In this document: positions 42,205 to 60,174 of the stretch, piece by piece
Layout: each line of letters opens with the position of its first letter
How positions within the stretch are numbered: the first letter of the stretch is position 1
DNA from: Altererythrobacter sp. XM-24bin4
Lineage (GTDB): Bacteria > Pseudomonadota > Alphaproteobacteria > Sphingomonadales > Sphingomonadaceae
Assembly: GCA_003149575.1 (NCBI GenBank)
Contig: QCWG01000001.1
Coordinates: 1,556,334 to 1,620,333, forward strand
DNA: 64,000 nucleotides
Reading direction: 5' to 3'
Notes under the pieces: generated by a model
What the model was told of the DNA's origin: nothing
Seen by the model: the letters and a program-made list of their open reading frames with translations, nothing else
The model's database searches: none
Program-made: the position numbers and the translations under genes

Positions 42205-42345
42205 CTGCCTGAGTGGATGACTACAATCGGGGCGACCGCACTCATAGCTTGGCTATGTGACACCGGCGGCGTTCGCCGCTGAACTCGATAAGCAATGACC
42301 TGTTTCGCTTCCGCTACGCAGCCATTGCTTCAACCGCTCTCTAGG
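42205..42345 (+). mobile_element. relic of an IS3-family transposase (OrfB C-terminus), left island edge
   Basis: Translating across frames gives DDYNRGDR, then after a frame change RPHS*LGYVTPAAFAAELDKQ* in two pieces. This is the classic end of IS3-family OrfB integrase-core proteins (YN-x-RPHSSLGY-x-TP-x-x-F). It holds at least one frameshift and two stop codons and has lost everything upstream. The relic abuts and slightly overlaps the 3' end of the TpsA gene. It shows that the left border of the A+T-rich island was shaped by an insertion sequence. Confidence 0.75.
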
Positions 42346-45300
42346 GGTTTAACGCCGAGTTTATAGATAGCGCTTCGTCATCAGATTTTGGCGCTGGTGG
42401 AGCCTCTTTTTGTGGGGCCACAGAAATGGTTGGGGTAAGAGCGACAACTTCTTGCGGAACTCCGACACTCGTATCAATCGAGGCCTCATCCTCAAAAGAA
42501 ACAGCAGCTAAAACAGGGTCTCCGCTATCCTCGGGATCACTAGGAGTAGGTGTTGGCTCATCGCCAACAGGAGACGGCGGCAATGGATCCGCTGGTTTCA
42601 CCTCCACCTTTACGATTTCACCGCCAGATTGTTGGCTGGATGTGCTCGACCCATCATCTGAACCTTCATCTCCTCCAACAGATGTGCCGCCGTCGGCACC
42701 AGTGTCAGCTTCACTATCAGATCCAGCACCATCGGACGTATCAGTAGAATCGGATCCATCGCTCCCCTCATCCGAACTTGATTCTTCAGATCCTTCGCCC
42801 GCATCATCGGACCCCTCATCGCTCTCTTCGGAACCTTCTTCTGAACTCTCGTCGCTATCCTCTGAGCCTTGATCGCCCTCATCGGTACCGTCGTCGCTGT
42901 CATCAGAGTTCGACTCCCCAGCGTCATCGCCGCCTTCTTCTGATCCATCGCCACCCTCGTCAGACCCGCTATCACCTGACCCCTCGCTACCATCGCCAGA
43001 GCCGTCGCCACTGTCATCAGAACCGCCATCGCCAGATCCTTCACCGCCACCATCGGAGCCCGTATCTCCTGATCCATCTCCACTGCCGCCTGATCCCGAA
43101 TCAGAGCCCGAAGACACCTCATTAACAATATTTTTTTGTACTGTTAGCGCGGTCTCATTCTCAACAGCCTGCACAAAAATATAGTTGGCTGCGGAAAGGC
43201 CTCCCCCAAAGATCGGGTAAAGCCCAACATCGGAATTTTCATCTGCTGGAGACGTGAAAACTAACGTTCCTGTAGTCGCATTTTCTAGGTTCTCGCCAGC
43301 AATAAAGCCTGTCACTGTACCCGAGAAAGTTGGATTTTGAGCGCCAACATATCTGGTGGCCTCATCAGCTCTGTATGTCAGAGTAGCGGGCAAAATAACT
43401 GCTGGGACAGTTATAGTATCTTGGAAACGATAACCAAACACTGGCGCACCGGATGTATCAGTAAAGTTGGCAGTGATCCCTGCAATCACAGCCTCCGTTG
43501 CATCGACTCCAGGTAGGTTCGCCGTGGCCGAGACGATATCAATTATGGCACTGTCCCCATTTACTAAACCAGAGAACAACAGGCTGACTAAATCAGGAGA
43601 AAAAGTCGTCGTTCCATCATAAATTCTACTTAGCTCTTCAGCAAGTTCTGCATTTAGCACCGGTGAAAGGCCATAGGCTAAGCCATTTCCTTCTGGTCTT
43701 TCAGGAAGTTCTGCTTCTCCCCTAGCACCGGCTAAACTTATGCCATAGTACCTAAAATCATGAACCAGAGATCCAACAATGTCTGGGTTATCTTCGCCGA
43801 ATGGATCCGGATTTCCGCTCCATACCGTCCAGGCACCAGTCTCTAAAACATCCTCCCTTTCGGAAAGGTTTGTAAAACCCGAAACGCCAATAAGATCGAT
43901 AATTTGGCGAGCGGATAAGAACGCATTCTCACCAAGTGTTAATCGCCGACCACTATCCGCAAAAATTTCGGCCAATCGGCTGTCTGCTCCTATTGTGCCG
44001 TTAAAATTAAGGTCTCCTTGAGCTCCGACCTCTAAAATACCCTCACCATCGTTTTCGGCATTTATTGGGCCTGTCATAGTGCCAGAACCATTAAATAATA
44101 TCCGCGCGTAATCACCCACTGTTATATCTTGTGCAAGTTCTACGGGCTCTTCTGTTTCTATAAAAAGTTCAGCATTCCCAAAGAAAAGCGTGTTTAAGGG
44201 TAAATTGCTCAGATTAGAAATAGCTAAAGCGCCGTTTATAATTCTCAGATTATTTATGGCTGAATTTTCACCCGACAAACGTAACGAGCCGGGACCAGTC
44301 GAAGACAAAATATTCGTGGTAACATTACCGAATATTTGACCAGACGTTAGTATGTCTAAGGTTATCTCATCGACATCGACGTCGCCATCGACAAAAATAT
44401 TCTCTCCCGCGAGAACGAGCATGGATTCTTCATTAGTCGGGTCAGACGAAATGCGGCCGCCAATAAAGATGTCCGAAACAGCACGAATATCGCCCTCGCT
44501 AAGCAGTAAAACGTCACCCCTCAATTCAATAAAGTTAGCGCTTAAAGCACTATCGAGATGAATCGTTCCTTGATTTTCCTCGGACCCAAAAGTCGTGATG
44601 ATGCTGAGATCCCCAGTAAAATCAGCATCAAAAACGTCACTACCACTTATAAATATATCGCCCCCGCTCGTACCAAGGCCAATAAAAGTCGCCGCAAGAA
44701 TGCGCGCATCTTCACTCAAGATTAGATCACCGCCGTCGGAAACAGCTGTGAACTCTGCATGTGACTGCCCTGTCCCAACAAGACCGTCGACCACAAGATC
44801 ATTCAATGCAAAGACCTGTAATACGCCGGATCCAGCATCCAGAGCGCTGGTCACAGCCGAGAACGAGCCAGGGCCCCTGAACAGAATTTGAGCTCTATCT
44901 TCTACAGTAATCTGTTGGGAAAGAGAAACAGGCGTTTCATCTAACTCCGTGTCAAGAAAACCGTCCACAAAGGGACGAATGTCGATATCAAGAAAGCCGT
45001 TGCCAAAGAAAATTGAATCGACCGGTAAATTGCTAACGTCGGAAATAGCTAAAGCACCGTTTATAATTCTTAGATGATTTATAGCTGAATTCGTACCCGA
45101 TAGTCGGAGAAAGCCTTGGCCCAACTTGGATAAGGTCTCTGCCGTCAGGTCTCCAAGAAACCAAGCATCCCCAGCATTCAAAGTGTCAACAGTAACGTCA
45201 TTAAAAGTAATGCTACCACTTACTCGCAAGTCACCGGGAGAACTAAGGACGAGCGTTGTAGGTTCGCCTTCCTCTTCCGAAGAAATATCTCCATTAATAA

Positions 45301-48300
45301 TCAGGTTGCTCAGAGAAGTGACTTGTCCGGACCGAGAGAATAAAAGGTCGCCAGATACAAAAATTGAGCCCGCACTAAGAGATTCGACAAGGTTAATTGT
45401 GCCACCAACTCCATCACCATCTTGATCAGCCTCCAAGTTTAATTGTCCAGTATAGTCACTGGCCAAAATATCGTCGCTTCCAAGTGAGATATTTCCATGG
45501 GCAAAAAGACCAACAAATTCTTCAGCTCGCAATCGAGCACTGTCGGCGAAACTCAGGTCTCCGTCTGAATAGAAAGTGGCAGCATGGAGGGACTGTTCTA
45601 GTCCGATTTGCCCAGTAATTGTCAGATCACCAAGTGCACTAACGTTGAAACTACCGACACCCTCCTCAACCGAATTAACTGGTCCTGAAACGATGCCTGA
45701 TCCTCTAAAGAGGATATCACCAGACTCTTCTACCGTAATCTGTTGCGTGAGAGTTATTGGGCCAAAATCAGTTTCAAAAACGGACTGAGAATCTGAAAAA
45801 TCTACCGTTTCTGGTTCATGAATGTCGATATCAAGAAGGCCGTCGCCAAAGAAGATCGAGTTCAATGGTAAATTGCTGATATCAGCAATTGCCAGAACAC
45901 CATTGATGATTCTCAGGTTATTTATGGAAGAATTTGGTCCTTGTATGCGCGCAGAACCAGACCCAAGCTTAGTTAAAGTTGTCGCTGTGATATCACCGCT
46001 GACCAATATATCTCCAATGCCAGGCGTCTCTAAATTGAGCTGATCAAAAACAATCGAGCCGTTAACCGATAGGGATAGGCCAGCCGACCTAAGCGTAAGT
46101 TCAACGCCCTCTTCTTCCGAAATCGTCGATATGCTGCCATTAATATTGGAATTGTTAAGAACACTTATCTCGCCGGAACCATCAAAAACTAAATTACCTG
46201 AAACCTCGAGAGCACCCGCGCTGAGAGAGCTAACGAGGTTAATGGTACCTCCAGTACCATCACTATCTCGATCGGCTGAAATTCCTAACTCGCCGCCGAA
46301 TTGCGATCCAATCACTTCATCGCTGTCGATAAAGATATCTCCATCGGCAAAGAAACCAATAGATTCGTCAGAAACTAGCCTTGCAGTCTCAGTAAGTTTT
46401 AGATCTCCTTCAGAAGAAAAATCGATGATCTCAAGGGTCCGATTAGTGCCAATAGATCCACTAATTGTGAGATCACTAATGGAAGCAATGCGTAAATTCC
46501 CAGTGTTTTCCGAAAGGGCGTCTACCGAGCCTGAAAAGGTACCAGAAGCTCCAAAAATTATTTCTCCGAATTCGTCAACCGTGACTAGTTGGTCCAATTC
46601 TAAGAGACTTGTGTTGGCAATATTGAGTGTCCCATTACCGAAATAGATGGTCTCGCTTGGAAGACCACTTATTTCCGAAAGATTTAGTCTACCACTTAAA
46701 ATCCTGAGATTCTCGAGGGTTGAATTGGAGCCGCCCAAATTGACGAGGCCTGTGCTCGTCAAAGTCCCGGCAGTGACATTGCCTAATGTGGCTTCCCCAC
46801 CCACATTCAGGATGATCTCTTCTGCCTCAGTTTCACCAATTTGAATAACACTACCAGTAACTTCAAGCAGGCCTGCAGTTATTAGCCCTTGAGCGAATAC
46901 AGATCCAATTTGGCCGCTGTCACTAGCCCCGGCGATTAGCCTCAATTGTCCTAGAAAGTTCGAGAAAACCGCAGAACTGTCTATCGAGACGTTATTATCT
47001 GCGCTGAAAATTATCTCTTGGGCCGAGCTATTGGCACCAAAACTTAATGTGAGGGGCCCACTGACAGAAATATTTCCAATACTGTCGTTGCTACGATTTG
47101 CCTCTGTGAAGTTTCTTGCATTTATGGTTAGGTTCGCGCCGCTTCCCAAAATATTCTGAAGCGTAGCTGCGCTAATTTGTGAAACTGGATCAAAGCCTTG
47201 GCTAAAAATATATGCTGTTTGAGAGATATCAGATATGATGTTTGTCGTGCAACAATTATCAAAATCGACTTCTCGGTATGTTAGCTGAGCTATTTGACTA
47301 GCGTCAGCGCCAGTCAAACCAATAGAGACGTTGTGTTGAACAATGCTAACATCACCGTAATTTAAATAGATGTCCCCATTCTCTCGTAGTCGAATTTCAA
47401 ACGTGTTAAGCTGACCGTTTATATATTCTGAGACCGCTTTCCACTGCAGAATAAATTCTCTGGTGCCGTCAGGATTTGTTATAGTCGTATAAAGGACATC
47501 GCCACCTTCATAGTTAGGAATAAGGTCTGTCCAAAGTCCAAAAATAGAGAGAAGCGGAGCATTACCATCGTCCAATGGCTGTCCGTTGCAACATCTGCTA
47601 TTACTTCCTAAATCACCAAAAGACAGGAATCCGTTAGATGAAACCTCTACACTATCGTATGTTTCTCCAAAAAATTCAAAGGCAAACCCAAGAGAAATTC
47701 TGCCGGAAACTTGATCATCACCCAAATTAAGGGATGTCATCAATGCAGGGTCATATAGCGGTGTTGTCTCGGCAGACTGCCACTCAAAATCTGAAAAGGA
47801 TAGATTTGATGAAGCAGCTGAAAGTTGATCAACTAAGTCAATAGACGCAGCAGTAAGCACAACTGTACCAGCTGTAGCGCCGCTAACAGATAATTCTGAC
47901 CCCTCAATCTCCAAATAGAACCCTGAAAGGTCAATGATGCCGCCTACGCTATCAGTTCCAACCCCATTAGCCCGGATTTCGCCAGCAACAAACGTTGCTA
48001 ATTCTTCTTCTCCCGGAGCCTCAATGGTAACTGTACCACCGGACCCTGAAACGGTAGCGCTTGCAGAAATTACGCTTCCATCAACTATCGCTATATCTGC
48101 CAGTGCACCGTTAGCCAGTTGAATACGGGTCTCTTCGACAAGAAAGGCTTCAGATTCCGAGATGGATACGAAGCTATTTCCCTCGATCGTTGTTGAAGAA
48201 TTAGAGCCTTGAGTGGCCGTCGAAAAAATAGATATTGAACCCCCGCCAGCCCCGCCGTCAGCTATTACCTCAGCCGTATCAGCCAAAGTGATCAACGTGC

Positions 48301-49204
48301 CGCTTGCTTCGATCGATCCACCAACTTCATCGGCTTCAAGACCCGCGACAGTCACAGTACCCGTTATGGTAACGTCACCATGGTCCCCAGCATCCAAGAT
48401 AATTGTGCCATTACGCTCTTCAACCGAGTTGGCCTGCAAAAGTCCCTCGGCATTTATGACACTATGAATGGCGTCTAACGCTGAGGCCATACTAAGGGCT
48501 ATCAGACCTCCATCAGCCGTGATGGTTCCCGTATTTTTAATTCCTTGAAATGATGCCGCTAGAGTGGACTCATTGCTCACAGCATAAGAAATCAGGTTAC
48601 CTTCATCAAAAGAGATACTCAGATCATTACCAGAGGCCAGTAAGACCGCTCCCAATGTCGCGCTAATCTGCCCCTCGTTTGTGATGGAGGCGCCGTGCAG
48701 GATTGTGTAACCCAATTCAGTGGCAATGCTACCAGCGTTTTCAACCGATGCAGACGAAACGCCTCCAATGCTGAATTGGTCTCCTCCTGCCATAAAGTCC
48801 GTCGATGAAATACTGCCAGTAGACGCGAGAAAACCAGAGGCAGTTACCTGACCAGTTGGAGATATGAAGATGCCGTTAGGGTTAAGTATCCAAACTCTGC
48901 CATTGGCCTCAATAGTTCCATCAATAATCGTTTGAGTAGTACCGGTGACCCTGTTTAAAGCTATCGACAATGCATCGGGCTGAACAAACTGTAGGGTCTC
49001 GTTTTCTCCCACACTAAGGTCTACCCAGTCTAGAAAAACTCGGTCAGTTGTCTGAGTAATGGTACGGACCGTACCCGCTTCATTAACGCTGTAAGTAGCA
49101 TCTCCAGCTACGACCGTCGGGGAGGAAGAGGTGTTTAGCGTATCCGCAGCCGCAACGGAACTTATACTCGCCGAGGCCAATAATATTAAGCGTAGTCGTT
49201 TCAT
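42341..49204 (-). CDS. TpsA-type filamentous haemagglutinin-like exoprotein
   Basis: This very large secreted adhesin starts at ATG 49204 (an upstream TTG adds two residues), 2287 residues. Signal peptide at 1-20 (ends SSVAAAD). The TPS secretion domain (about 22-290) has NRVTG, NGRVWILNPNGIFISPTGQV and a beta-helix. Residues about 470-660 form a nidogen-like insertion (FAFEFFGETYDSVEVSSNGF) with two adjacent-cysteine pairs, SRCCNG and DNCCTTN. Residues about 810-1770 hold three and a half 275-residue repeats. YDG (IYDGTTTF, about 1858) and MBG-like (YVGAQNPTFSGTVTGF, about 1953) modules follow. The tail at 2027-2190 is a Ser/Gly/Asp/Glu repeat. It is paired with the TpsB gene 44 bases upstream. 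Its stop lies in an IS relic, so the C-terminus may have been altered. Confidence 0.9.
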   Translation of the reverse strand: MKRLRLILLASASISSVAAADTLNTSSSPTVVAGDATYSVNEAGTVRTITQTTDRVFLDWVDLSVGENETLQFVQPDALSIALNRVTGTTQTIIDGTIEANGRVWILNPNGIFISPTGQVTASGFLASTGSISSTDFMAGGDQFSIGGVSSASVENAGSIATELGYTILHGASITNEGQISATLGAVLLASGNDLSISFDEGNLISYAVSNESTLAASFQGIKNTGTITADGGLIALSMASALDAIHSVINAEGLLQANSVEERNGTIILDAGDHGDVTITGTVTVAGLEADEVGGSIEASGTLITLADTAEVIADGGAGGGSISIFSTATQGSNSSTTIEGNSFVSISESEAFLVEETRIQLANGALADIAIVDGSVISASATVSGSGGTVTIEAPGEEELATFVAGEIRANGVGTDSVGGIIDLSGFYLEIEGSELSVSGATAGTVVLTAASIDLVDQLSAASSNLSFSDFEWQSAETTPLYDPALMTSLNLGDDQVSGRISLGFAFEFFGETYDSVEVSSNGFLSFGDLGSNSRCCNGQPLDDGNAPLLSIFGLWTDLIPNYEGGDVLYTTITNPDGTREFILQWKAVSEYINGQLNTFEIRLRENGDIYLNYGDVSIVQHNVSIGLTGADASQIAQLTYREVDFDNCCTTNIISDISQTAYIFSQGFDPVSQISAATLQNILGSGANLTINARNFTEANRSNDSIGNISVSGPLTLSFGANSSAQEIIFSADNNVSIDSSAVFSNFLGQLRLIAGASDSGQIGSVFAQGLITAGLLEVTGSVIQIGETEAEEIILNVGGEATLGNVTAGTLTSTGLVNLGGSNSTLENLRILSGRLNLSEISGLPSETIYFGNGTLNIANTSLLELDQLVTVDEFGEIIFGASGTFSGSVDALSENTGNLRIASISDLTISGSIGTNRTLEIIDFSSEGDLKLTETARLVSDESIGFFADGDIFIDSDEVIGSQFGGELGISADRDSDGTGGTINLVSSLSAGALEVSGNLVFDGSGEISVLNNSNINGSISTISEEEGVELTLRSAGLSLSVNGSIVFDQLNLETPGIGDILVSGDITATTLTKLGSGSARIQGPNSSINNLRIINGVLAIADISNLPLNSIFFGDGLLDIDIHEPETVDFSDSQSVFETDFGPITLTQQITVEESGDILFRGSGIVSGPVNSVEEGVGSFNVSALGDLTITGQIGLEQSLHAATFYSDGDLSFADSARLRAEEFVGLFAHGNISLGSDDILASDYTGQLNLEADQDGDGVGGTINLVESLSAGSIFVSGDLLFSRSGQVTSLSNLIINGDISSEEEGEPTTLVLSSPGDLRVSGSITFNDVTVDTLNAGDAWFLGDLTAETLSKLGQGFLRLSGTNSAINHLRIINGALAISDVSNLPVDSIFFGNGFLDIDIRPFVDGFLDTELDETPVSLSQQITVEDRAQILFRGPGSFSAVTSALDAGSGVLQVFALNDLVVDGLVGTGQSHAEFTAVSDGGDLILSEDARILAATFIGLGTSGGDIFISGSDVFDADFTGDLSIITTFGSEENQGTIHLDSALSANFIELRGDVLLLSEGDIRAVSDIFIGGRISSDPTNEESMLVLAGENIFVDGDVDVDEITLDILTSGQIFGNVTTNILSSTGPGSLRLSGENSAINNLRIINGALAISNLSNLPLNTLFFGNAELFIETEEPVELAQDITVGDYARILFNGSGTMTGPINAENDGEGILEVGAQGDLNFNGTIGADSRLAEIFADSGRRLTLGENAFLSARQIIDLIGVSGFTNLSEREDVLETGAWTVWSGNPDPFGEDNPDIVGSLVHDFRYYGISLAGARGEAELPERPEGNGLAYGLSPVLNAELAEELSRIYDGTTTFSPDLVSLLFSGLVNGDSAIIDIVSATANLPGVDATEAVIAGITANFTDTSGAPVFGYRFQDTITVPAVILPATLTYRADEATRYVGAQNPTFSGTVTGFIAGENLENATTGTLVFTSPADENSDVGLYPIFGGGLSAANYIFVQAVENETALTVQKNIVNEVSSGSDSGSGGSGDGSGDTGSDGGGEGSGDGGSDDSGDGSGDGSEGSGDSGSDEGGDGSEEGGDDAGESNSDDSDDGTDEGDQGSEDSDESSEEGSEESDEGSDDAGEGSEESSSDEGSDGSDSTDTSDGAGSDSEADTGADGGTSVGGDEGSDDGSSTSSQQSGGEIVKVEVKPADPLPPSPVGDEPTPTPSDPEDSGDPVLAAVSFEDEASIDTSVGVPQEVVALTPTISVAPQKEAPPAPKSDDEALSINSALNP
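42640..43130 (-). repeat. low-complexity Ser/Gly/Asp/Glu repeat in the TpsA tail
   Basis: About 160 codons encode imperfect short units such as GSGDGS, GGSDDS, EGSEES and DEGSDD. The first half is Gly/Asp-rich and the second Glu/Ser-rich. The encoding DNA is a degenerate TCA/TCN-rich tract on the + strand. The product is strongly acidic and probably extended. Such tails can span the cell envelope or bind calcium. It is also a likely site for repeat-length variation by replication slippage. Confidence 0.85.
43880..46780 (-). repeat. three and a half tandem ~275-residue repeats in TpsA
   Basis: The unit core reads like NNLRIINGALAISN-LSNLPLN-(S/T)(I/L)FFGN and recurs with DNA cores near 46630-46730, 45840-45940, 45000-45100 and 44170-44270, a period of about 790-840 bases. 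Each core is followed by a block of the type ITVEDxxxILFRGxG, then GDLxxxGxIG and SLSAGxxxVSG. The last copy breaks off after the first third. Units share about half their residues by eye, so the duplications are old but still collinear. Confidence 0.8.
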
Positions 49205-49247
49205 GACCAATTACTCATATAGGATCGCTTGTACACTGTTGTACTCA

Positions 49248-50945
49248 TTAAAGCACCTGCACAAGACTGAGATTTAGGCGAGCGGGGCGCCTCTTAATTC
49301 CAGCAAGTTCCCGCCCGTCTGAGGCAAATTGCAAGTCGAGCAGGGCTCGCTCAGCTACAACAGCTCTCAAACCAAACCCATAGGAAAGAAGGCTCTGTTT
49401 TTCAGCTTGCACTCCTTCTCCCGCAAGTAATTTAGTCTTCGCCCAGTCTCCAAAACTGTATGCCTGGAGATTTGCGATTACCCCTGCCTCATATACATCG
49501 GGAAAATCGAGCCTTAGCTCACCTAAAAGCCCAAAGCCTCTGTCGCCTGTCAGAGACGATGGCGCATAGCCCCGTCCAAGTTGAGGTCCGCCAAAAGCTA
49601 ATTGCTCTCCTGCCAACAAACGGTCGTCACTCCATTGACCCGAAGCGCGAAACAAAAATGACATGCTCCGAGAGGGAGGAAAAAGATGGTCAAATTGCCA
49701 ATCAAATTTCAGAAACTTAGACTCAAAATCAACAACGGATGGCGTTGGATTGGACTGATCCAGAGCTCCGAACGCTGGAATTCCTCCGGTCGCCACGAAT
49801 TGCAAGGCTGTTTGTCCTAAATCTGACTGATGCTGGCCGCGTAAACCTATTTGTCCGCTGACGATTTTATCACGTGTGATGACCGTATCTAGCGCCTCTA
49901 CGCGGGTAGAAGCGAATGTTACTGCAGTTTCTAGGTAAATCGCAGTTGAACGGTTTCTGAGTAATGGCGACCTCAATCGCGCCTCGACAGAGTAGGATGA
50001 ACTGGCGACCTCAAGTTCGGCAGCCTCCCCTCCTGGACGAGCGCGTGCCGCCAGCCCGCCGAGGTAAAGAATGTTACCATCAGGTCCGACAGGAAAGGCA
50101 TAACGGCCACTTACGGCCAAGAGTTCTTCTAAAGTGTGGCCAGCAGAACTGAGCGACAAATCTAGTGCTGCCGGGTGCCCGAAAGGCGAATTAACCGTAT
50201 ACCCAACAGAATATATGACCGGCCCAATTGCATCAGATCCAGTATTGCTGACACTGAAAAATCCCTGGTTTGAAGGCCTTGATGTTGTGATGGCCATTTC
50301 GGCTGCGCCAGACTCGCTTCCTGGCCTTAAAAGTGTTTTTACCGACACACCAGGCGTGTCATTCAAAATGAGTAGTTTGCCATCAAGCTCGCGAATATTG
50401 AGAGGCTTCGCACCAACCATTTCAGAAAGAGCCGCTTTTGCAAGATTCGCGCCCAAAGCAGCGCTATCATCAACTGCGATATTGTCTAGAAAACCCTCAA
50501 CAACCTCGACCGTTACAATTCCGTCCTCGATTGTTTGGGGGGGCAGAATGACTCTCGTTAAGAGAAACCCCTCGTTCGCGTAGAGTTCCTGCAGCTGGTT
50601 CGCGTATTCTCTCAACTCTTCTAATCTGACTCGTCGACCTTCTATCGACGAAAATATTTCATTAATTTGGTCTGCAGAGAAATATGTAGCACCATTAACC
50701 CGCACTTTTGAGACTAGAAAATCCAGACTTGAAACATCTTTTGGGACGACAGACTCCTCAGGATTCCGTATCGTAACGTCGTAGTCTTCCTGAGTTGGTA
50801 AATCTGGGGGAGGCAAGCGTAACCTAGAAATATCTGCGCTAGGCGGGATGACAACCGATTGCCCAAAGGCTGGAACGCCAATCATAAGGCTAAAGGGTGC
50901 AGCCATTAAAAAAGACGATCTAGAAATTTTCTCAAAGTTAATCAT
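49248..50945 (-). CDS. TpsB/ShlB/FhaC-family outer-membrane transporter
   Basis: This 565-residue partner exports the TpsA protein across the outer membrane. A signal peptide (residues about 1-29, ends PAFGQ) is followed by a linker and two POTRA domains (about 75-150 and 152-225; VRVNGATYFSADQINEIF and ILPPQTIEDGIVTVEVVEG). A 16-strand barrel follows. The conserved L6 RGY motif is present in GGPQLGRGYAPSSL. The protein ends in a hydrophobic beta-signal LNLSLVQVL. Its ATG overlaps the cyclase stop by 4 bases, placing secretion and signalling genes in one operon. Confidence 0.93.
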   Translation of the reverse strand: MINFEKISRSSFLMAAPFSLMIGVPAFGQSVVIPPSADISRLRLPPPDLPTQEDYDVTIRNPEESVVPKDVSSLDFLVSKVRVNGATYFSADQINEIFSSIEGRRVRLEELREYANQLQELYANEGFLLTRVILPPQTIEDGIVTVEVVEGFLDNIAVDDSAALGANLAKAALSEMVGAKPLNIRELDGKLLILNDTPGVSVKTLLRPGSESGAAEMAITTSRPSNQGFFSVSNTGSDAIGPVIYSVGYTVNSPFGHPAALDLSLSSAGHTLEELLAVSGRYAFPVGPDGNILYLGGLAARARPGGEAAELEVASSSYSVEARLRSPLLRNRSTAIYLETAVTFASTRVEALDTVITRDKIVSGQIGLRGQHQSDLGQTALQFVATGGIPAFGALDQSNPTPSVVDFESKFLKFDWQFDHLFPPSRSMSFLFRASGQWSDDRLLAGEQLAFGGPQLGRGYAPSSLTGDRGFGLLGELRLDFPDVYEAGVIANLQAYSFGDWAKTKLLAGEGVQAEKQSLLSYGFGLRAVVAERALLDLQFASDGRELAGIKRRPARLNLSLVQVL

Positions 50946-52939
50946 TTACTACCCATCTTAATCCAGGCCGAAATATCCCCGCTCTGCAACCTGTTACTAT
51001 GATAAATGATCAAGGGATCCGTAGGGTATTTTCCCTGAAGATCAGAAAACCTTTGAGGAGCTGAGCTATCTCGTTGCTCCAATAAAGAAAATGCTGCCTG
51101 ATATTCCGCTTCAGCCTCTTCGTTGTGCGTTGATGGAAGAGGAGTATATAAAGTTGTATATTCAGATTTTCCTTTGAGAGCAAAATGACCGATGGTTCTG
51201 AATGCTTGATCTTTTGCTTGATCGACCACCGACTGAGTACAGCATATCCTAGTGCCGAAGTATTTGTTGATCCCTTCAGTTCTCGCAGCTGTGTTTACGG
51301 TATCGCCAAGAGCCGTGAAATCCATCCTCTGTGAAGAACCGAAGTTACCAACCACTGCTGGGCCGGCATGAAGACCGATCCTAGTTACGCCAAGAGGGAT
51401 ACCTTTATTATTACACTCCTCACGATACTTTTCTGCGTAAGAATCCAACTCAAGTGCAGCCTGAACCGCAGCTGCAGCATGGTCAGGTTGCTCAATGGGT
51501 GCATTGAAGATCGCCATAATGGCATCTCCAATAAACTTATCGATTGTACCCCCATGCCGTAGAATAATTTCGCAGGCCCCATCTAGATATTGATTAAGAA
51601 CATCTGACAAATCCTCGGGCGAAAGAAGTTCAGACATCGTCGTGAAATCCGCAACATCGGTAAACAAGAAAGTGGTATCTCGTTTTTCTCCGCTTATTGC
51701 GGCTGCACTGGGATCTTCCGCAATTCGATCAACCACGGCCGGTGATACATAACGCGAAAATGTTGACTGAATGTATTGGCGCTGCATTCTTTCGGCGCGT
51801 CCAATTACGATATCCATCATCCACACAGATAAAAGAAGAGCAAGAGACGGAGGCAAAATAGGCCACATGCCAATCCCGTAGCCATAGCCAATAATGCAAA
51901 GCACCCAATAGCCGGCCAGTACCGCAATTGATAAAGATAAATTGAAGACCAGACCTTTGCGAAGTTGGCTAATCAGCACACCCAGAGCCGTGAATGCAAT
52001 AACAACAAGCAGTGTAAACCCTATTGAGGACTTCGGCTCAGGCATGCCTGACAGCAAGCTGTCAATAGCATGGGCTTGTATAAGTACACCGGGCATAAAC
52101 CCGCGATTTCCATCGTCTATAATCGAGAGTGGCGTTGAATGACGGTCGGTGATGGATAGAATAGCCCCTATGAGAACTATTTTTTCTTCGAATAGTTCGT
52201 CGGGCAAGTAGGTGACGTAGTTGGCTGATATTACCGGAAAAGGCTCTTGGCCTTCTGCTGATACTGGACGCCATGAAATCTCACGAGGTGTTTCGAGCAA
52301 AGGGACCCCTTGCGAGTTAGCAATTTTAGCGGCGAAGCTTGGCGGATAATCATCGTTATAAATAAGTTCTCCATCGGAAAAAATTCCACCCGTGTTAATT
52401 CGACGAACAAGAGAGTCAAAAGGATCAGATAAGAGCCTGCTTTCCACTCTTTTGTCAGCCGGAATGAAGGCCCTCATGTAATTAAGCTGATCTTCAGTTA
52501 CGAACGCGGGATCTGCTGTATAACTAAAATATAAAGGTGTCTCAGACCGGCGAATTACCTCAAAAAGTTGAATATCTTTAGATTCCTCGCTGGCTTGATC
52601 GATAAGGACATCCACTACAATCGCCGAGGCCCCTGCGGAATCTATGCGCTCGATCAAATCGGCGATGAATGCTCTATCAATGGGTGAACGGTAAGAAAAT
52701 TGAGCTAACGTATCCTCATCAAGTGCCACCACAATAATGTCATCGGATGGCTCTTTCGGCACTTCCATCGCCGCAACCCGAATATCGGCAAGTTTCTTCT
52801 CAAGATTATCCAGTGGTGCAAGGGTTTGTACTGCAACAAAAGCAATGATTGCTGACAGAAGGGCAACAAGGGTAATCCAAAGAGCCGACCGCGTAGGTTT
52901 ATTTAATACAATCGAAGACCAACTTGCGGGAAGCCTCAT
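50942..52939 (-). CDS. CHASE2-domain adenylate/guanylate cyclase (class III)
   Basis: This 665-residue membrane cyclase has an N-terminal helix (about 17-38) and an extracytoplasmic CHASE2 sensor domain (about 45-320, with VVALDEDTL and DRAFIADLIERIDSAGA). Three transmembrane helices (about 325-395) precede the class III catalytic domain (about 415-600). Metal-binding Asp residues lie in FLFTDVADFT and GDAIMAIF. The base-contacting Lys is in TIDKFIGD and the transition-state Asn/Arg in TALGDTVNTAARTEG. A full catalytic set is present, and the Lys/Asp pattern favours cAMP. The strong GGAG Shine-Dalgarno lies before ATG 52939. CHASE2 senses unknown periplasmic signals. Confidence 0.93.
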   Translation of the reverse strand: MRLPASWSSIVLNKPTRSALWITLVALLSAIIAFVAVQTLAPLDNLEKKLADIRVAAMEVPKEPSDDIIVVALDEDTLAQFSYRSPIDRAFIADLIERIDSAGASAIVVDVLIDQASEESKDIQLFEVIRRSETPLYFSYTADPAFVTEDQLNYMRAFIPADKRVESRLLSDPFDSLVRRINTGGIFSDGELIYNDDYPPSFAAKIANSQGVPLLETPREISWRPVSAEGQEPFPVISANYVTYLPDELFEEKIVLIGAILSITDRHSTPLSIIDDGNRGFMPGVLIQAHAIDSLLSGMPEPKSSIGFTLLVVIAFTALGVLISQLRKGLVFNLSLSIAVLAGYWVLCIIGYGYGIGMWPILPPSLALLLSVWMMDIVIGRAERMQRQYIQSTFSRYVSPAVVDRIAEDPSAAAISGEKRDTTFLFTDVADFTTMSELLSPEDLSDVLNQYLDGACEIILRHGGTIDKFIGDAIMAIFNAPIEQPDHAAAAVQAALELDSYAEKYREECNNKGIPLGVTRIGLHAGPAVVGNFGSSQRMDFTALGDTVNTAARTEGINKYFGTRICCTQSVVDQAKDQAFRTIGHFALKGKSEYTTLYTPLPSTHNEEAEAEYQAAFSLLEQRDSSAPQRFSDLQGKYPTDPLIIYHSNRLQSGDISAWIKMGSK

Positions 52940-52947
52940 TTACTCCT

Positions 52948-53658
52948 CTACTCCACCGTCTCATTGGATAAGGATGCCAGCAGTGCGTCGACCTGTTGAA
53001 TACACCCTTTCTCTATCATCCAAGCAGCAAGAAACGTTGGTTCGTCCAGCAGTGGAGGAACTAGATGCACACGAATACTATATTCCAAATCCCTGTCCTC
53101 AATCAGGAAGGCCTTGGTCAAGTCTATGTCGCTTACCTTAGTGATGGCGACAGTATCTTGTCCGGGTTTAAATTGAAACGCAGCCTTCCAAGATCGGTCA
53201 AGTGGAGACACAACAAAACTTTGTTCTGAAACATCAGATGGCCGCCACCAACCAATTGGGGCCCCTTCTACGAGACACCGTTCCCCTGGTCGAGTTATAT
53301 CAATCAGCCAAGGTGATGGTATCGGATCTGCATCTGAACCAGACCGAACAGCTCCAACACGATTTGCACGGTCATTGCGGGTGGCAATTAAAGCTGAAAG
53401 GGCGCGGCTAGCATTTTGACCGGCGGCTGCCTGAAGTCTTACCGGGCCATTATGAGGACCCCTAAGCCTAATTACACCGCCGTCGGTCCCCACAACCACT
53501 AGCTTACCTCCTGGTGGTAGTGAGACTTGACGGTCTGCGCTGATCCGGCTTCCAACACTTATATCTACGCCTCTGACCTCAACAACAATTAGGCTCTGAG
53601 CATATGTCGGAACCGTTAACCCGATTACCAAAATGAAACTGATGAGCGCGCGGATCAC
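52948..53658 (-). CDS. periplasmic FecR-like protein, unknown function
   Basis: This 236-residue protein starts with GTG at 53658, overlapping the CHAT gene stop by 4 bases. It has a signal peptide (residues 1-20, ends PTYAQ). The next 70 residues (VGSRISADRQVSLPPGG, LVVVGTDGGVIRLRGP) resemble the beta-rich FecR-type domain. The remaining C-terminal half has no clear family and contains two cysteines (CLVEGAP and KGCIQQ) that could form a disulfide. It lies between the protease and cyclase genes, so it may be a sensor or inhibitor in the same circuit; that is inference. Confidence 0.7.
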   Translation of the reverse strand: MIRALISFILVIGLTVPTYAQSLIVVEVRGVDISVGSRISADRQVSLPPGGKLVVVGTDGGVIRLRGPHNGPVRLQAAAGQNASRALSALIATRNDRANRVGAVRSGSDADPIPSPWLIDITRPGERCLVEGAPIGWWRPSDVSEQSFVVSPLDRSWKAAFQFKPGQDTVAITKVSDIDLTKAFLIEDRDLEYSIRVHLVPPLLDEPTFLAAWMIEKGCIQQVDALLASLSNETVE

Positions 53659-56225
53659 AATCTTGACCCCGAGCTAAAGACAGTCTCGGCACCACTTCCC
53701 ACGAAAGAAAATGCTCCCCAGAAGAAGGGGTGTGCCGTCTCTTCATTGGAAATTGCCTCAACCTGAGCGCGCTGAAGTGCCTGATCGGTCGATAGACCCC
53801 TTTCGTCGCCTATATTTCCGAAAAGATTTTTCATTAAGGTAGCAGTGGCTACAGAGGGAACTTGCCAATGGGTAACAAGCATACTGCGCGCGCCTGCTAT
53901 AAAGAAACTTTCAGCCAGACCAGAAAGCGATTCCCCTTTTTGGACAGCCGCGTCACTGCTGGTTGCAGTATTGCAAGCCGATAACACCACTAAATTCGCT
54001 GAAATCCTGAGGGCGGCAATTTCACTGGCATCAAGAAAACCATCTTCTGTTCTTGAAAGTGCCATCTCTCCTGGACGAGCTAGCGCTATGCCTGGCTCGC
54101 GTTGACAAGCCACCTCTCCTGGCATCACTGCGTGAGTTGCGACGTAGATAATATTATACTGGTTCAGAGCGTCAGTGCGAAAGACTTCTTCTTTAGCTGC
54201 TCGGTCAGAAAACACATCAGCATCTTCAATCCCTAAAGAAGCAATAACTGAGTTCACTTCGTCGATTGTGTCGGGCAGTTCTTCGAGGCTATCAAACCGG
54301 CTTAGTATCGCAAGGCCTTCGGGATTACAAATTGGATCCTCTGACGTGGGTAGCGTTTGAATGTCAGATACAAACTTAGGATTAGCTACACCCAAAAACG
54401 ATCTTGGGGGAGCCCTCACAGTTCTTGTGGATCTTAAATTTATAAAACTAACTAACGACGGAGCATGTGTAACCGACATTCGATTAACTAGCCAGCTCGC
54501 CTCTGTGTAATCTGCGCTCAGGGGTAAGCGGGTTACTAAAGTGCCAAACGGTAGATCGCTCAATGGGCCATTGGGTATCACAATTAAACGCCCCAACTTG
54601 TTAAACTCATCAGCAACAGCCCCAAAAAGCGTCTGATAAAGGAAATGAGATTCATCAAGATTAAATTCGTTTACTGATCCACCCTCTATTTCGAGACCCT
54701 GACGCAATTCGCGAACCATTTGATCAAGCTTGTCATTACCAGCTTCTATCGGCGCAATGTGCACTCTATCTCGCGTAATAAGCTGCAGGAAGGATGAATC
54801 TTGCCCTATCAGAAAGCTAGCAAGCGCTTCATCAGGTGCTAATGCACCCCGAACAACATTTAGGTCGGGCAGCTCACTACCGTCAAAGCGTTGGTAATCA
54901 GGATATTCCTGATTTAGGATATCGCGAATCCCGGACACCTTATCAGACTGTATCTGCAACTGAGAGAGTAAAAACTCTATCAGGCGATCATCACGGTCTC
55001 CGGTAACTTTAGCTCGCTCTACACCTAATTTTCCATTAATTTCTGCTTGCAATAATAAGCTCTGCTTAAGGCTATCAATCAGGTCAGCAAGGACTGGATC
55101 GTCATCGACAAACTGCATAGACGCAAGATTAATCACATCGTCTCGCCCTGGAACAAAGGCAATTTGGAAGGCATCATAAAGCTCAGTCATTAAACCAAGC
55201 CTATCTTCCTCGCTTTCCAAGAACTGCTCTTCATCAAGAACAGCAGAAGCAAAAGGGACTAGATCATCTACCCGAAGTGCTACTGAACCGGGCGGCATAT
55301 TTTTTGCAATTTCTACAGCTCTACGAAAGGCTATGATCGAGTTAACGTTCATTGCTTCGCGCTGATATGCGCGCCCCTGAGCAAGGAGCAAACGAATCAT
55401 TCCCGGCCCGTCCCCTTGGACCGATCGTCTAATATCAATCGCTTTCTTAAAAAAAGTATCCGCAGCTGATAAGCGTCCTAAAGCAGATGATGCTTCACCC
55501 AAAATAGCAAGTATCTCTGATCGCCATATGGGGGGTTTTTGAGCTGCTGAATTGAACTCAAAAAGAGCTTCGCCTGCCTTGGCATAAGCAGTTACAGGAT
55601 CGTCCATTCGCAAAAGAATGGCAGCTTCACGAGCTAACGAAAGTGCAAGCTCAGGCTGAACGCCAACCCGCGCCTCTTCCTCCGTTTGGAAAAGCGACAA
55701 CAAGGCTTGCTGATCATCACTACCAATAATTTCTCTCCACCTGGAACTGGCATCTTGCGCAAAACGGTTGGCGACCGAATAATCGCCTTGAAGCATAGCA
55801 ATGGTCGCTTGGTAACCGGCAAATCTGGCTCTATCAGTAGGGCGAGGCGATCTATCAATAATTGGTCCAGCTCGACGGACGATCGCGTCAGCACCTTCGA
55901 AATCTTCCTGATATGCGAGCACCATTGCAAGATCCAAAAGCAAGGCCGCTGTCGTAAAATCTGAATCACCGAACAACCTAGATTGAACCGCTAATGCGGC
56001 CTCAAGGCGTTCTTGGGCCGCAGAAAAATCAAGTTTTTCACTGGCTTCACGTGCAGCATTCCAGTCAGTCTCAATAGAGATAAGTTCAGATGTGCTTTCT
56101 GTACTATCTGCCTCCGGCGTTGAGCCCTCTGATTTAATCTCCGCTGAAGATGGTCGGGCGCCAGAGACTAACGGATCGGCTGCCGCAGGTGCGGCAGCCA
56201 AAAGTAAAATAAGGCTCAAAAACAT
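53655..56225 (-). CDS. secreted TPR-CHAT caspase-like protease
   Basis: A signal-peptide start at ATG 56225 (MFLSLILLLAAAPAAADP) gives 856 residues; the longer reading to 56306 adds 27 non-signal residues. TPR-like helical repeats occupy about 60-420, including LAQGRAYQREAMN and AKAGEALFEFNSAAQ. A linker precedes the CHAT domain at about residues 570-855. The caspase-type dyad is intact: His698 in YVATHAVMPGE and Cys751 in VVLSACNTA, followed by AGARSMLVTHWQVP. CHAT proteases are usually cytoplasmic, so the export signal is notable. It is the first gene of the five-gene operon. Confidence 0.88.
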   Translation of the reverse strand: MFLSLILLLAAAPAAADPLVSGARPSSAEIKSEGSTPEADSTESTSELISIETDWNAAREASEKLDFSAAQERLEAALAVQSRLFGDSDFTTAALLLDLAMVLAYQEDFEGADAIVRRAGPIIDRSPRPTDRARFAGYQATIAMLQGDYSVANRFAQDASSRWREIIGSDDQQALLSLFQTEEEARVGVQPELALSLAREAAILLRMDDPVTAYAKAGEALFEFNSAAQKPPIWRSEILAILGEASSALGRLSAADTFFKKAIDIRRSVQGDGPGMIRLLLAQGRAYQREAMNVNSIIAFRRAVEIAKNMPPGSVALRVDDLVPFASAVLDEEQFLESEEDRLGLMTELYDAFQIAFVPGRDDVINLASMQFVDDDPVLADLIDSLKQSLLLQAEINGKLGVERAKVTGDRDDRLIEFLLSQLQIQSDKVSGIRDILNQEYPDYQRFDGSELPDLNVVRGALAPDEALASFLIGQDSSFLQLITRDRVHIAPIEAGNDKLDQMVRELRQGLEIEGGSVNEFNLDESHFLYQTLFGAVADEFNKLGRLIVIPNGPLSDLPFGTLVTRLPLSADYTEASWLVNRMSVTHAPSLVSFINLRSTRTVRAPPRSFLGVANPKFVSDIQTLPTSEDPICNPEGLAILSRFDSLEELPDTIDEVNSVIASLGIEDADVFSDRAAKEEVFRTDALNQYNIIYVATHAVMPGEVACQREPGIALARPGEMALSRTEDGFLDASEIAALRISANLVVLSACNTATSSDAAVQKGESLSGLAESFFIAGARSMLVTHWQVPSVATATLMKNLFGNIGDERGLSTDQALQRAQVEAISNEETAHPFFWGAFSFVGSGAETVFSSGSRL

Positions 56226-56371
56226 GTTGCTAAATGTCTGCAGCAAGTGGTCCACGACAGATACGATAGATACAATTGCCCCCTCTGACGAGTCTAATCT
56301 GAACATTTATGCAGATGACAGGTGTTGGATAATCGGCGATACCATTGTGGCTGGGAATTTAAATTAGTCCC

Positions 56372-56602
56372 TTATTGGACGCCAAAATGAGAGTAGCGAC
56401 TGATCACGTGATTTTTAGCCACTGAATAGCCCTTAGATTTGTGGACGCCATCGGTGCTCATAATCTGCTGCCTTTCGAACTCTACGGGTGACAGCATCCC
56501 GTTCCTTACATGCTTGCGTATCGGGTTGTAGAACACCTCGATGTAATCGAACACATCCTGCCTGGCCTCGTCGCGTGAGCGATCATGAGAGGCAGCTTCA
56601 GG
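56372..56602 (-). mobile_element. relic of an IS3-family transposase (OrfB C-terminus), right island edge
   Basis: The - strand frame reads SRDEARQDVFDYIEVFYN, then KHVRNGMLSPVEFERQQ. This is the C-terminal end of an IS3-family OrfB with the usual FDYIE-x-FYNP-x-R(R/K)H signature. An in-frame stop at about 56603 and the absence of any upstream DDE residues show it is truncated. It differs in sequence type from the relic at 42205, so two separate insertion events are likely. It marks the right border of the A+T-rich island. Confidence 0.75.
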
Positions 56603-56823: not shown

Positions 56824-56863
56824 TTAAACAGCCATATGTGTTAGCCGGACTGCAGGGGTGGGA

Positions 56864-58228
56864 ATGACGAGTCGGTTGAGAACTTTATTGGCCCGAGTGG
56901 CGCCGCTTGCCGTTGTCCTTACGTTCGCCTTCGCACTTCCGGCTTCGTATGCGCAGAATAGTGCGACCTATGAAGGGGTTGCGACTTGTGCGGGTTCGAC
57001 TTGCCACGGCCGGGCTGTAGGCAATGGCGCCGTTGTCCGGCAAGATGAGATTGCGACCTGGCAAGATCCTTCATCACCCAGCGGGGCGCATAGCCGGGCC
57101 TATGCATCGCTTGCGAGCCGGCGAGGTCAGCAGATCGCGGACAGTCTGGGATTGGGAGCCGCAACCTCTGCTCCCGATTGCTTGGGTTGCCATTCGACCT
57201 TTGCGCCGACTAGCCAACGCGGTGACCGCTTTCTCCTGGCAGATGGTGTAGGCTGCGAAAGCTGCCATGGCGCGTCGCAAGAGTGGCTTCCGCTCCACTA
57301 TGCTCGCTCGGCTACGCATGCCTCCAACGTCGCTTTGGGGCTAGTGCCTTTGGAACGCCCGCAAGTGCGCGCAAACGTCTGTCTGGATTGCCATTACGGA
57401 TCCGAAAGGACCGGTCAATTTGTAACACATTCGATGATGGCGGCAGGACATCCGCGTATTTCGTTCGAGCTCGATCTCTTCAGTGCGCTTCAGCAGCACC
57501 ACGATTTAGATAGTGACTATGTTGATCGCAAGGGGGCGTCTGATAGCGTGCGGATGTGGGCGGTCGGCCAGGCCGAGGCGGTGCGTCGCGCAACCAACCT
57601 TTTCGCGAAGCCAGCCTTGGCGCAGCGCGGGATGTTTCCCGAATTCTACTTCTACGATTGCCATTCGTGCCATCGCTCGATCCACGATGGGCCGCAGCGA
57701 AAGCTAACCTTTGAAAGCAATCCGGGGCGCCCGATACCGTTCGGCAACCCACCATTTAATGATGAGAACATCATCACGTTGTCCGCTGTTGCACGGGTGC
57801 TTGCGCCAGACGAGGCGGATCACTTCCTTGCGGCGAGCAGGGCCTTTCATCGAGCGATGGGCGAGGATCATAGCAAAGCGCTTGAAGCGGCCGTGATACT
57901 GCGCGGCCACGCATTCAACCTATCCAATGTGCTTGCGTCGCGCGAATACGCCGGATCGGACGCGTTCTCCGTGATCGCTGCGATATCCAATCGCGCGACG
58001 TCTTCGCGTTTCACGGACTATGCGGGCTCGGTTCAGGCGGTGATGGCGGTCGATACCTTGCTCAACGCCATGGTGCGCGATGGCCGGGTGACTGTCGGTG
58101 CGGCGGCTGGCATTCGCGCGAATATCAATCGCGCTTACGCGGCTGTGGCGGTGCCCAATAGCTACCGGCCGCAATCTTTCCGATCCGCGCTTGGCGAAGC
58201 GGCTCGCGCGATAGGCACGCTGCGGTAA
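56864..58228 (+). CDS. periplasmic five-haem cytochrome c, c554-like
   Basis: ATG 56864 is preceded at good distance by AGGGG; the GTG two codons upstream lacks a ribosome site. The 454-residue product has a signal peptide (1-30, ends ASYA). Five haem motifs follow: an unusual CX4CH at 42-48 (CAGSTCH), then CXXCH at 106, 131, 173 and 266. The N-terminal half therefore resembles the cytochrome c554/multihaem group, including the distal His residues in THSMMAAGHPRISFE. Residues 290-450 are helical and haem-free. It overlaps the next gene by one base (TAATG). Confidence 0.88.
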   Translation: MTSRLRTLLARVAPLAVVLTFAFALPASYAQNSATYEGVATCAGSTCHGRAVGNGAVVRQDEIATWQDPSSPSGAHSRAYASLASRRGQQIADSLGLGAATSAPDCLGCHSTFAPTSQRGDRFLLADGVGCESCHGASQEWLPLHYARSATHASNVALGLVPLERPQVRANVCLDCHYGSERTGQFVTHSMMAAGHPRISFELDLFSALQQHHDLDSDYVDRKGASDSVRMWAVGQAEAVRRATNLFAKPALAQRGMFPEFYFYDCHSCHRSIHDGPQRKLTFESNPGRPIPFGNPPFNDENIITLSAVARVLAPDEADHFLAASRAFHRAMGEDHSKALEAAVILRGHAFNLSNVLASREYAGSDAFSVIAAISNRATSSRFTDYAGSVQAVMAVDTLLNAMVRDGRVTVGAAAGIRANINRAYAAVAVPNSYRPQSFRSALGEAARAIGTLR

Positions 58229-60174
58229 TGCGGGCGAAGGCAACCAGTTCATCTCTGGCAGTGCTAGCGCTGGTGCTGACATCTTGCGGTGATGGAGGCG
58301 GTTCTTCGAGCGGCGGCTCGAGTGTTACTCCCACGCCAACCACGGCACCGTCATCGGCAGGCGCGCTCTACTCTGTGCCAGCACAAGAAGCGCTCAGCGC
58401 TGCCGAAGTAGGAACTGTGATTGCGCGGGCCGCGGCGCAGGCGAGTGCGCAGGGAGATGCGGCAACCATCGCGGTGGTCGACCGGGTCGGCAATGTACTC
58501 GGCGTATTCGCTATGCCAGGTGCGAGCGCTACCTCTGACATTCCCGATTCGCCGAATGGCAGCAATGTGGATGCGCAAGGACTTACTGTACCAGCGGCTG
58601 CTGCGGCTATCGCCAAGGCGATCACCGGTGCCTACCTTTCCAGCAACGGCAATGCTTTCTCCACCCGAACAGCCAGCATGATCGTGCAAGAACACTTCCC
58701 GCCTGCACCAAGCACGGCAGGATTGGAAAGCGGGCCACTGTTCGGAGTGCAGTTCAGTCAGCTGCCTTGTTCAGACCTGTCTGCACGCGCAAGCGACGGC
58801 TTAATCGGGCCAAAGCGCTCGCCGCTGGGCCTGGCAGCGGATCCCGGAGGCTTCCCGCTCTACAAGAACGGTGTGGTTGTGGGCGGGGTCGGCGTGATCT
58901 CAGACGGCGTATACAGCTTCGATCCTAATGTGCTTGATACCGACATAGATGCTGACGAAGCGATCGCACTGGCAGGCACAATTGGGTTTGAAGCGCCGAC
59001 AAGTATCCACGCAAACCGAATTTTCGTCGACGGGACATCGCTTCGCTATTCGGACGCAGCCTACTCTTCCTTGGCTGACGTGTCTGGAGCAAGCTTCACA
59101 GGCACTCCAGGCGCGTTGCTTGCGGTTACCGGCTATTACGATGGTGTGGCGTTACTGGCCGGATCTGCTTATGGTACAGAAACCTCAGGCATTCGCGCGG
59201 CTGGTGTGACTGAATTCGGCAATCAGGATGCCTTTGTGCTGAGCGATGGCGCCGGCACCAATCGTTTTCCCATACGAGCGGGAACAGACGGCGCGGACAT
59301 TGCCTCACCGATCAGCGCCAATGAAGCGCGTGTAATTCTGGAAGAAGCCTTCGCGATCATGAGCCGCGCGCGTGCGCAGATCCGTCAACCGCTTAATAGT
59401 AGGGCACAAGTGACGATTTCGCTGGTCGATACACGCGGCGAAGTGTTGGGTATTGTGCGTTCACCCGATGCGGCGATTTTCGGGATCGACGTCAGTTTGC
59501 AGAAGGCACGCACAGCCAATTTCATATCTGCGCCTTTTGCAGCCAATGAACTTCAAGCGGCTACGGGTGAAGTGCCAGCTTTCGTCACCGTCTTGCGCAC
59601 ATTTCTCAATGATCCGAGCGCCTTGACCGGACAATTCGCGTTTGCAGACCGCTCGGGTGGAAACCTCTCGAGGCCCTATTTTCCTGACGGCGAAGTGGGG
59701 CAGATCAGTGGCCCGCTGTCGCGCCCGATCGAACAATTCAATCCCTTCTCCACAGGCCTGCAATCGGCGCTTGTGGTCGGCAATCTGGCGCAGCATCTGG
59801 CTTTCGTTACCGGTGCAGCACCTAACGATACACCTCGATTTTGCACGTCTTTGCCGCAGGTTAGGCCCGATCATACGAGGATAGCCAACGGTATCCAGAT
59901 ATTTCCTGGTTCAGTGCCGATATATCGGGGCGGCGTGTTGGTGGGCGGGATCGGCGTGTCGGGCGATGGGATTGATCAGGACGATATGATCAGTTTCTTG
60001 GGGCTTCACAATGCTGGCCAAAGTGTTGGCGGGATTGGCAATGCCGGCCACGATATTCGCGCTGATCGCATTCTGGTTTCAGTTGGCGGTCGTAAGGTTC
60101 GGTTGCGTTATGTCAATTGCCCCTTCGCGCCGTTTCTGGACAGCGATGAAAACAATGTCTGCGAGGGGCTTTAG
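58228..60174 (+). CDS. lipoprotein with two HbpS/GlcG-like (DUF336) domains
   Basis: The 648-residue protein starts MRAKATSSSL with lipobox VLTSC (Cys20), then a Gly/Ser/Thr-rich linker. Two copies of a HbpS/GlcG-like fold follow (about 55-345 and 350-640). Each begins with a helix of the EVGTVIARAAAQA type, then a VDRxGxVLGVxxxP strand. Each ends with the loop YKNGVVVGGVGVISDG or YRGGVLVGGIGVSGDG and an (I)RADRI(L/F)V strand. The family includes haem-binding and redox-sensing proteins. Lying between two multihaem cytochromes, it may handle haem or a small substrate at the membrane surface; that is inference. Confidence 0.78.
   Translation: MRAKATSSSLAVLALVLTSCGDGGGSSSGGSSVTPTPTTAPSSAGALYSVPAQEALSAAEVGTVIARAAAQASAQGDAATIAVVDRVGNVLGVFAMPGASATSDIPDSPNGSNVDAQGLTVPAAAAAIAKAITGAYLSSNGNAFSTRTASMIVQEHFPPAPSTAGLESGPLFGVQFSQLPCSDLSARASDGLIGPKRSPLGLAADPGGFPLYKNGVVVGGVGVISDGVYSFDPNVLDTDIDADEAIALAGTIGFEAPTSIHANRIFVDGTSLRYSDAAYSSLADVSGASFTGTPGALLAVTGYYDGVALLAGSAYGTETSGIRAAGVTEFGNQDAFVLSDGAGTNRFPIRAGTDGADIASPISANEARVILEEAFAIMSRARAQIRQPLNSRAQVTISLVDTRGEVLGIVRSPDAAIFGIDVSLQKARTANFISAPFAANELQAATGEVPAFVTVLRTFLNDPSALTGQFAFADRSGGNLSRPYFPDGEVGQISGPLSRPIEQFNPFSTGLQSALVVGNLAQHLAFVTGAAPNDTPRFCTSLPQVRPDHTRIANGIQIFPGSVPIYRGGVLVGGIGVSGDGIDQDDMISFLGLHNAGQSVGGIGNAGHDIRADRILVSVGGRKVRLRYVNCPFAPFLDSDENNVCEGL

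Follow-up and report, generated by a model that had tools for sequence, protein, structure and literature searches.

What would a cysteine protease of the CHAT type, apparently exported, do beside the genes of a secreted adhesin? The question is raised by the minus strand of the window, the whole 64-kb stretch of DNA analysed here, which carries a five-gene run in the order CHAT, small secreted protein, CHASE2-cyclase, TpsB and TpsA, with the CHAT gene as the first of the five and with a 4-nt overlap or a gap of less than 10 nt at three of its four junctions. The run consists of the predicted exported TPR-CHAT cysteine protease (53655..56225, 856 aa from the ATG at 56225, with an alternative GTG start at 56255); a predicted small exported protein of 236 aa with two invariant cysteines (52948..53658), overlapping the CHAT stop by 4 nt; a protein joining CHASE2 to an adenylate/guanylate cyclase (50942..52939; PF05226, E 9.9e-31, and PF00211, E 2.2e-19); the TpsB transporter with its POTRA_2 and ShlB domains (49248..50945; PF08479 and PF03865); and the TpsA exoprotein of 2289 aa (42341..49210), with a TPS domain (PF05860, E 1.8e-27), an MBG domain and a weak YDG match. 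A TpsB with POTRA and ShlB barrel, together with a TpsA having an N-terminal TPS domain, identifies the locus as a two-partner secretion (TPS, type Vb) system, and in this 2.53-Mb genome, which is 99.8% complete, the one CHAT, the one TPS domain and the one ShlB transporter all lie in the five-gene run, so that its TpsB and TpsA are the only ones present. The small exported protein belongs to no Pfam or NCBIfam family and has no Foldseek match at E <0.001, only weak cupredoxin-like and laccase-like ones, and it is duplicated in some related loci (L237, L241). We favour, with somewhat more confidence than doubt, the answer that the CHAT protein is a TPR-CHAT cysteine protease, exported and dedicated to a single class of two-partner secretion systems, in which it would act on the TpsA tail.

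The open reading frame at 53655-56306 (-) is real, and in full length it encodes 883 aa. Its CHAT domain, caspase-like and of clan CD (53694..54644), matches PF12770 with an E value of 5.1e-50 (171 bits vs. a 24-bit cut-off), and Pfam TPR families also match, in a helical array of residues 41-448 (54882..56105) that AlphaFold models as helices with a mean pLDDT of 84. The entire model (mean pLDDT 84, pTM 0.84) consists of this long TPR array followed by the caspase-like domain, and its nearest solved folds, according to Foldseek and VIA, are the TPR-CHAT of Csx29/Craspase and separase, while a search of the PDB with the CHAT sequence returned nothing at E 0.01. The CHAT dyad assigns the catalytic residues as His698 (54132..54134) and Cys751 (53973..53975), numbered from the ATG at 56225 and corresponding to His725 and Cys778 of the 883-aa frame. 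The preliminary description had reported TPR repeats and a CHAT domain with this dyad intact, and both are confirmed, with the two residues invariant in all 77 TPS-linked CHATs. The profile match, the His-Cys dyad and the predicted caspase/separase-like fold joined to TPRs place the protein among the CHAT peptidases, with a putative proteolytic activity.

The same description had read a signal peptide from ATG 56225 as the best start, and this reading stands, given that the protein opens there with a predicted Sec signal peptide, MFLSLILLLAAAPAAA before DP (56178..56225), a hydrophobic segment whose cleavage point we place by the A-A-A at -3 to -1. The upstream ATG at 56306 was rejected as a general start because G233, another genome of this species, has a TAA at codon 7 of the frame that follows it (TCA to TAA). 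The other starts considered (GTG 56255, TTG 56246 and ATG 56225) all retain the segment, and none of these three is preceded by a perfect Shine-Dalgarno match of at least 4 bases. The segment provides the hydrophobic h-region and the A-x-A cleavage site of a Sec signal and is, narrowly, the 13-mer of highest hydrophobicity in the protein (2.40 vs. 2.16 inside a TPR helix). The positively charged n-region is missing, as neither ATG 56225 nor GTG 56255 places a K or R ahead of the h-region, and for this reason a signal-peptide predictor could score the ATG 56225 start only moderately. With neither a clear ribosome-binding site nor a basic n-region residue, the case for export made from this single protein is only fair. 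A basic n-region residue is present in most CHAT orthologues, and the comparative case for the export of TPS-linked CHATs, as judged from their sequences, is strong: under a simple hydropathy and motif rule, 72 of the 77 have a signal-peptide-like or lipobox start, several being lipoprotein-like, and the five exceptions resemble cut or over-extended frames or a narrowly missed lipobox. Since so many of its TPS-linked orthologues begin likewise, the signal peptide of the window CHAT is more than a chance resemblance.

The preliminary description had also presented export as unusual for a CHAT protease, and this is not borne out, since signal-peptide-like starts are found in most of the proteobacterial TPR-CHAT relatives examined (about 95), and most of those lacking a TPS linkage also appear exported; export as such is therefore ordinary. 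At two such loci (L039 and L049), the neighbours of exported CHATs outside TPS systems include TPR/SlipAM-like outer membrane proteins and a secreted protein that is large and uncharacterised; judging from these neighbourhoods, other CHATs may serve Slam-type surface proteins. At a further locus (L044:3843-12577), an autotransporter gene (PF03797) is found close to the gene of an exported CHAT and in the same orientation.

The cysteines of the window CHAT had been counted as two; they are in fact three, at positions 633, 707 and the catalytic 751. Cys633 (54327..54329) and Cys707 (54105..54107) are loop residues not far along the sequence from the active site, and all 77 TPS-linked CHATs have a cysteine in each of the two stretches, the second being mostly glycine in other CHATs. 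On account of this co-occurrence and of the position near the active site, the pair may well form a structural disulfide in an oxidising compartment. The question of redox control that had been raised is answered in this part only: the conserved pair fits a structural disulfide, but there is no sign of a redox switch.

Nearly all CHAT relatives have an extra N-terminal domain with at least two cysteines, which is absent from the species of the window, and remnants of it sought upstream of the window CHAT were not found. Directly upstream, at about 56460-56560 (-), a short frame reads DYIEVFYNPIRKHVRNGMLSPVEFERQ, which by eye resembles the end of an IS3-type transposase, and an insertion may explain the lost domain. 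Divergently from the CHAT gene, at 56858-60174 (+), there are genes for a cytochrome c554-family multihaem protein and an HbpS-like haem-binding protein. In about ten further TPS-CHAT loci, the operon again has both of these genes beside it, mostly following TpsA, and because of this recurrence they may belong to the system.

The preliminary description had not recognised the protease as the constant partner of a single class of TPS systems. In a survey of 296 genomes of the order, in which the 150 CHAT matches listed were compared with 144 TPS-domain matches, 62 of the former lay within 15 kb of a TPS domain, with all 63 pairs on the same strand, vs. 1.6 expected by random placement. The TPS-linked CHATs fall in one clade with an SH-aLRT of 100 (20 of its 25 rows being scored as linked), containing many Alphaproteobacteria and some Betaproteobacteria. 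Gene order varies within it: besides the arrangement of the window, there are loci reading TpsA, CHAT, small protein, CHASE2, TpsB, others reading TpsB, TpsA, CHAT, CHASE2, small protein, and at least five (L235, L236, L238-L240) with a bare CHAT, TpsB, TpsA stretch having neither CHASE2 nor the small gene. One TPS-CHAT locus is publicly annotated as encoding hypothetical proteins along with a CHAT protein, a CHASE2 protein and a ShlB-family transporter. An apparent TpsA-CHAT fusion (L226) was judged by its composition to be an out-of-frame extension of the reading frame and was set aside. Given the bare loci and the frequent overlap of about 4 nt between TpsA and CHAT, CHAT likely has the TPS proteins as its partners, with the cyclase as an accessory.

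The bare loci also bear on a different reading, which we regard as distinctly improbable, in which the exported CHAT would switch the cyclase by cutting its periplasmic CHASE2 domain or else the small secreted protein, the whole being an envelope sensor with TpsA as its output only. In its favour, the window and most of its clade have the CHASE2-cyclase and small-protein genes next to CHAT, the CHAT, the CHASE2 domain and the small protein are all predicted to face the periplasm, and a Crp/Fnr regulator gene adjoins one locus. However, the loci having neither CHASE2 nor the small gene retain CHAT, and their TpsAs bear the tail motif described below, so that the common factor is the TPS linkage. 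The regulator in question, of the Crp/Fnr family and with a cyclic nucleotide-binding domain, lies just before a CHAT-CHASE2 cyclase on a Sphingobium plasmid (L259:13156-13794) and possibly reads the cyclase signal.

The reading of CHAT as a protease for TpsA gains support from the C-termini of the TpsAs, which we compared between CHAT-linked TpsAs and TpsAs of the same order that are not near a CHAT. The CHAT-linked tails share the motif [ILV]D[DE]PV[TS]GxG[ND]xxL[WY], placed 15-49 residues from the end, as an island of 3.1 bits per column vs. 1.1-1.3 in its flanks, in an alignment anchored on the P-V-T/S-G part, the G-N/D..L part not being used for anchoring. By reading, it is present in all 20 tails of the loci with CHAT upstream and in most of the 36 tails of those with TpsA upstream. 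Because 2 of the 18 controls and, among interior windows, about 17% also fitted a loose regular expression, this was abandoned in favour of profiles. A profile made from the 20 CHAT-upstream tails alone recovered, at E <0.01, 22 of the 36 tails of the other arrangement, and none of the 18 unlinked TpsA tails or of 56 shuffled tails. More distant TPS-CHAT loci have related tail ends, such as SSWGNEALWQ, SVGNSSNW and FSTSGNPARW, and the NCBIfam models, sorting signals included, matched no tail in the three CHAT-linked TpsAs that were searched. A 30-residue profile built from 25 tails and run in six frames over the 296 genomes gave 84 matches, 59 of them outside the training set and every one beside a CHAT gene: 78 lie within 25 kb of a tabulated CHAT on the same strand, each with a different CHAT, and inspection of the sequence showed an adjoining CHAT gene at the remaining 6. 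With this motif in the family and the tight, conserved TPS linkage, the earlier suggestion of an envelope substrate for a protease encoded beside a secreted adhesin appears well supported by sequence comparison.

Since homologous operons share descent, these 84 matches are not independent, and the motif could simply mark a TpsA family that travels with CHAT. This leads to a further alternative, in our opinion unlikely, in which the motif plays no part in proteolysis: it would anchor, plug or help to fold the TpsAs of one family, whose genes are inherited together with that of an envelope CHAT having a separate function. Some TPS adhesins do have C-terminal anchor regions, and a co-occurrence of TpsA and CHAT need not be functional, since both genes descend together. 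Against it, the motif is a short island amid variable tails, it is kept across operons of differing gene order, and all of its genome-wide matches have CHAT as a neighbour.

The TpsA of the window is itself a partial exception. Its C-terminal tail (42344..42583), LPPSPVxxxPTPTPSDPEDSGDPVLAAV...SDDEALSINSALNP, retains the clade-wide block LPPSPVxxxPxPTPxDxxDxGDPVLxxV conserved with related TpsAs, but its last residues (SDDEALSINSALNP) have diverged, as have those of its nearest relative (VDSGFSSIDSILIQ). A search of its own genome with the 30-residue profile gave no match to it, and therefore the motif argument is one at the level of the family, reaching the window via clade and operon only. 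No frameshifted tail motif was seen below the stop of this TpsA, and its diverged tail may, as a speculation, be connected with the lost N-terminal domain of CHAT.

For the dedicated protease acting on the TpsA tail, a mechanism can be proposed. TpsA would pass the outer membrane via TpsB, leaving its C-terminal tail, by analogy with FhaB and CdrA, as the last part in the periplasm. There, the operon-encoded CHAT, predicted to be lipid-anchored in several orthologues, would bind the short tail motif with its TPR array, and its caspase-like domain would cut at or near the motif, so that the cognate adhesin would be released, matured or locked. Where present, the CHASE2-cyclase and the small exported protein probably couple the envelope state to a cyclic nucleotide signal. 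With about even chances, this extends to a tag-and-protease system for two-partner secretion, in which CHAT would recognise the motif, or clade-specific variants of it, on its cognate TpsA and would cut or sort this adhesin, in some loci under control of the CHASE2-cyclase. Periplasmic location, tail binding, cleavage and the consequence for the adhesin are what we infer from the export signals, the conserved dyad, the operon linkage and the restriction of the motif to the neighbourhood of CHAT genes. A surface role, in which a secreted or exposed CHAT would attack matrix or foreign proteins and the adhesin would serve as its targeting arm, seems very remote to us. Other exported CHATs do have an autotransporter gene or Slam-like genes in their vicinity, and some may have other surface roles, but CHAT showed no recognisable signal for export across the outer membrane, lipoprotein-like starts occur in several orthologues, and no immunity-like gene was noticed. 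The points against the dedicated protease are the diverged window tail, the shared operon descent, the missing N-terminal domain of CHAT and the n-region having no basic residue, and the chief weakness is common descent, since co-occurrence in homologous operons does not amount to independent events.

The literature searched contained no paper linking CHAT to two-partner secretion, filamentous hemagglutinin or CHASE2, so that the CHAT-TPS pairing and the tail motif appear to be undescribed there, the component families being known. If the dedicated-protease reading is true, CHAT proteases, so far associated chiefly with CRISPR and with further roles in the cytoplasm, gain an extracytoplasmic job and a predicted substrate, and the timing with which bacteria release giant adhesins becomes testable in sphingomonads, which are harmless.

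Among known systems, Csx29 of the type III-E CRISPR Craspase, a proven TPR-CHAT endopeptidase (PMC10028731), shares the architecture and fold of the window protein and is its best Foldseek match (E 3.8e-12; VIA Z 27). It differs in having an RNA-guided partner, whereas the window CHAT has a predicted signal peptide and, as neighbours, TPS and cyclase genes, with the Cas7-11 and Csx30 neighbours of type III-E being absent beside it. HetF of Anabaena is likewise a CHAT protein with an envelope connection, having one predicted transmembrane segment (PMC8406250), but its CHAT is N-terminal, and its roles, in division and heterocyst formation, lie outside TPS. The PorU-type sortases of type IX secretion, which are C25 peptidases, serve here as an analogy only. 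In function, the proposed likeness is to LapG, the periplasmic cysteine protease that cuts the Pseudomonas aeruginosa TPS adhesin CdrA under c-di-GMP control (PMC5422565, PMC7484184), with which the window would share a periplasmic protease (predicted here), a TPS adhesin with a C-terminal tail and a nucleotide second messenger. In contrast to that system, the protease of the window has the CHAT/caspase fold and is encoded in the TPS operon, Pfam finding CHAT and TPR only and no LapG-type protease; its adhesin has no C-terminal TAAG site, none occurring in the last 110 residues; and its nucleotide enzyme is a CHASE2 adenylate/guanylate cyclase. In Bordetella FhaB-FhaC, DegP and then CtpA remove the FhaB prodomain (PMC8263021), and this stepwise proteolysis of a periplasmic TpsA C-terminus resembles what we propose here by analogy, although DegP, CtpA and SphB1 belong to other protease families than CHAT. 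The genes of the known maturation proteases appear outside the TPS operons in a review of these systems (PMC5422565), to which CHAT-TPS, if the proposal is true, would be a widespread exception with a recognition motif of its own.
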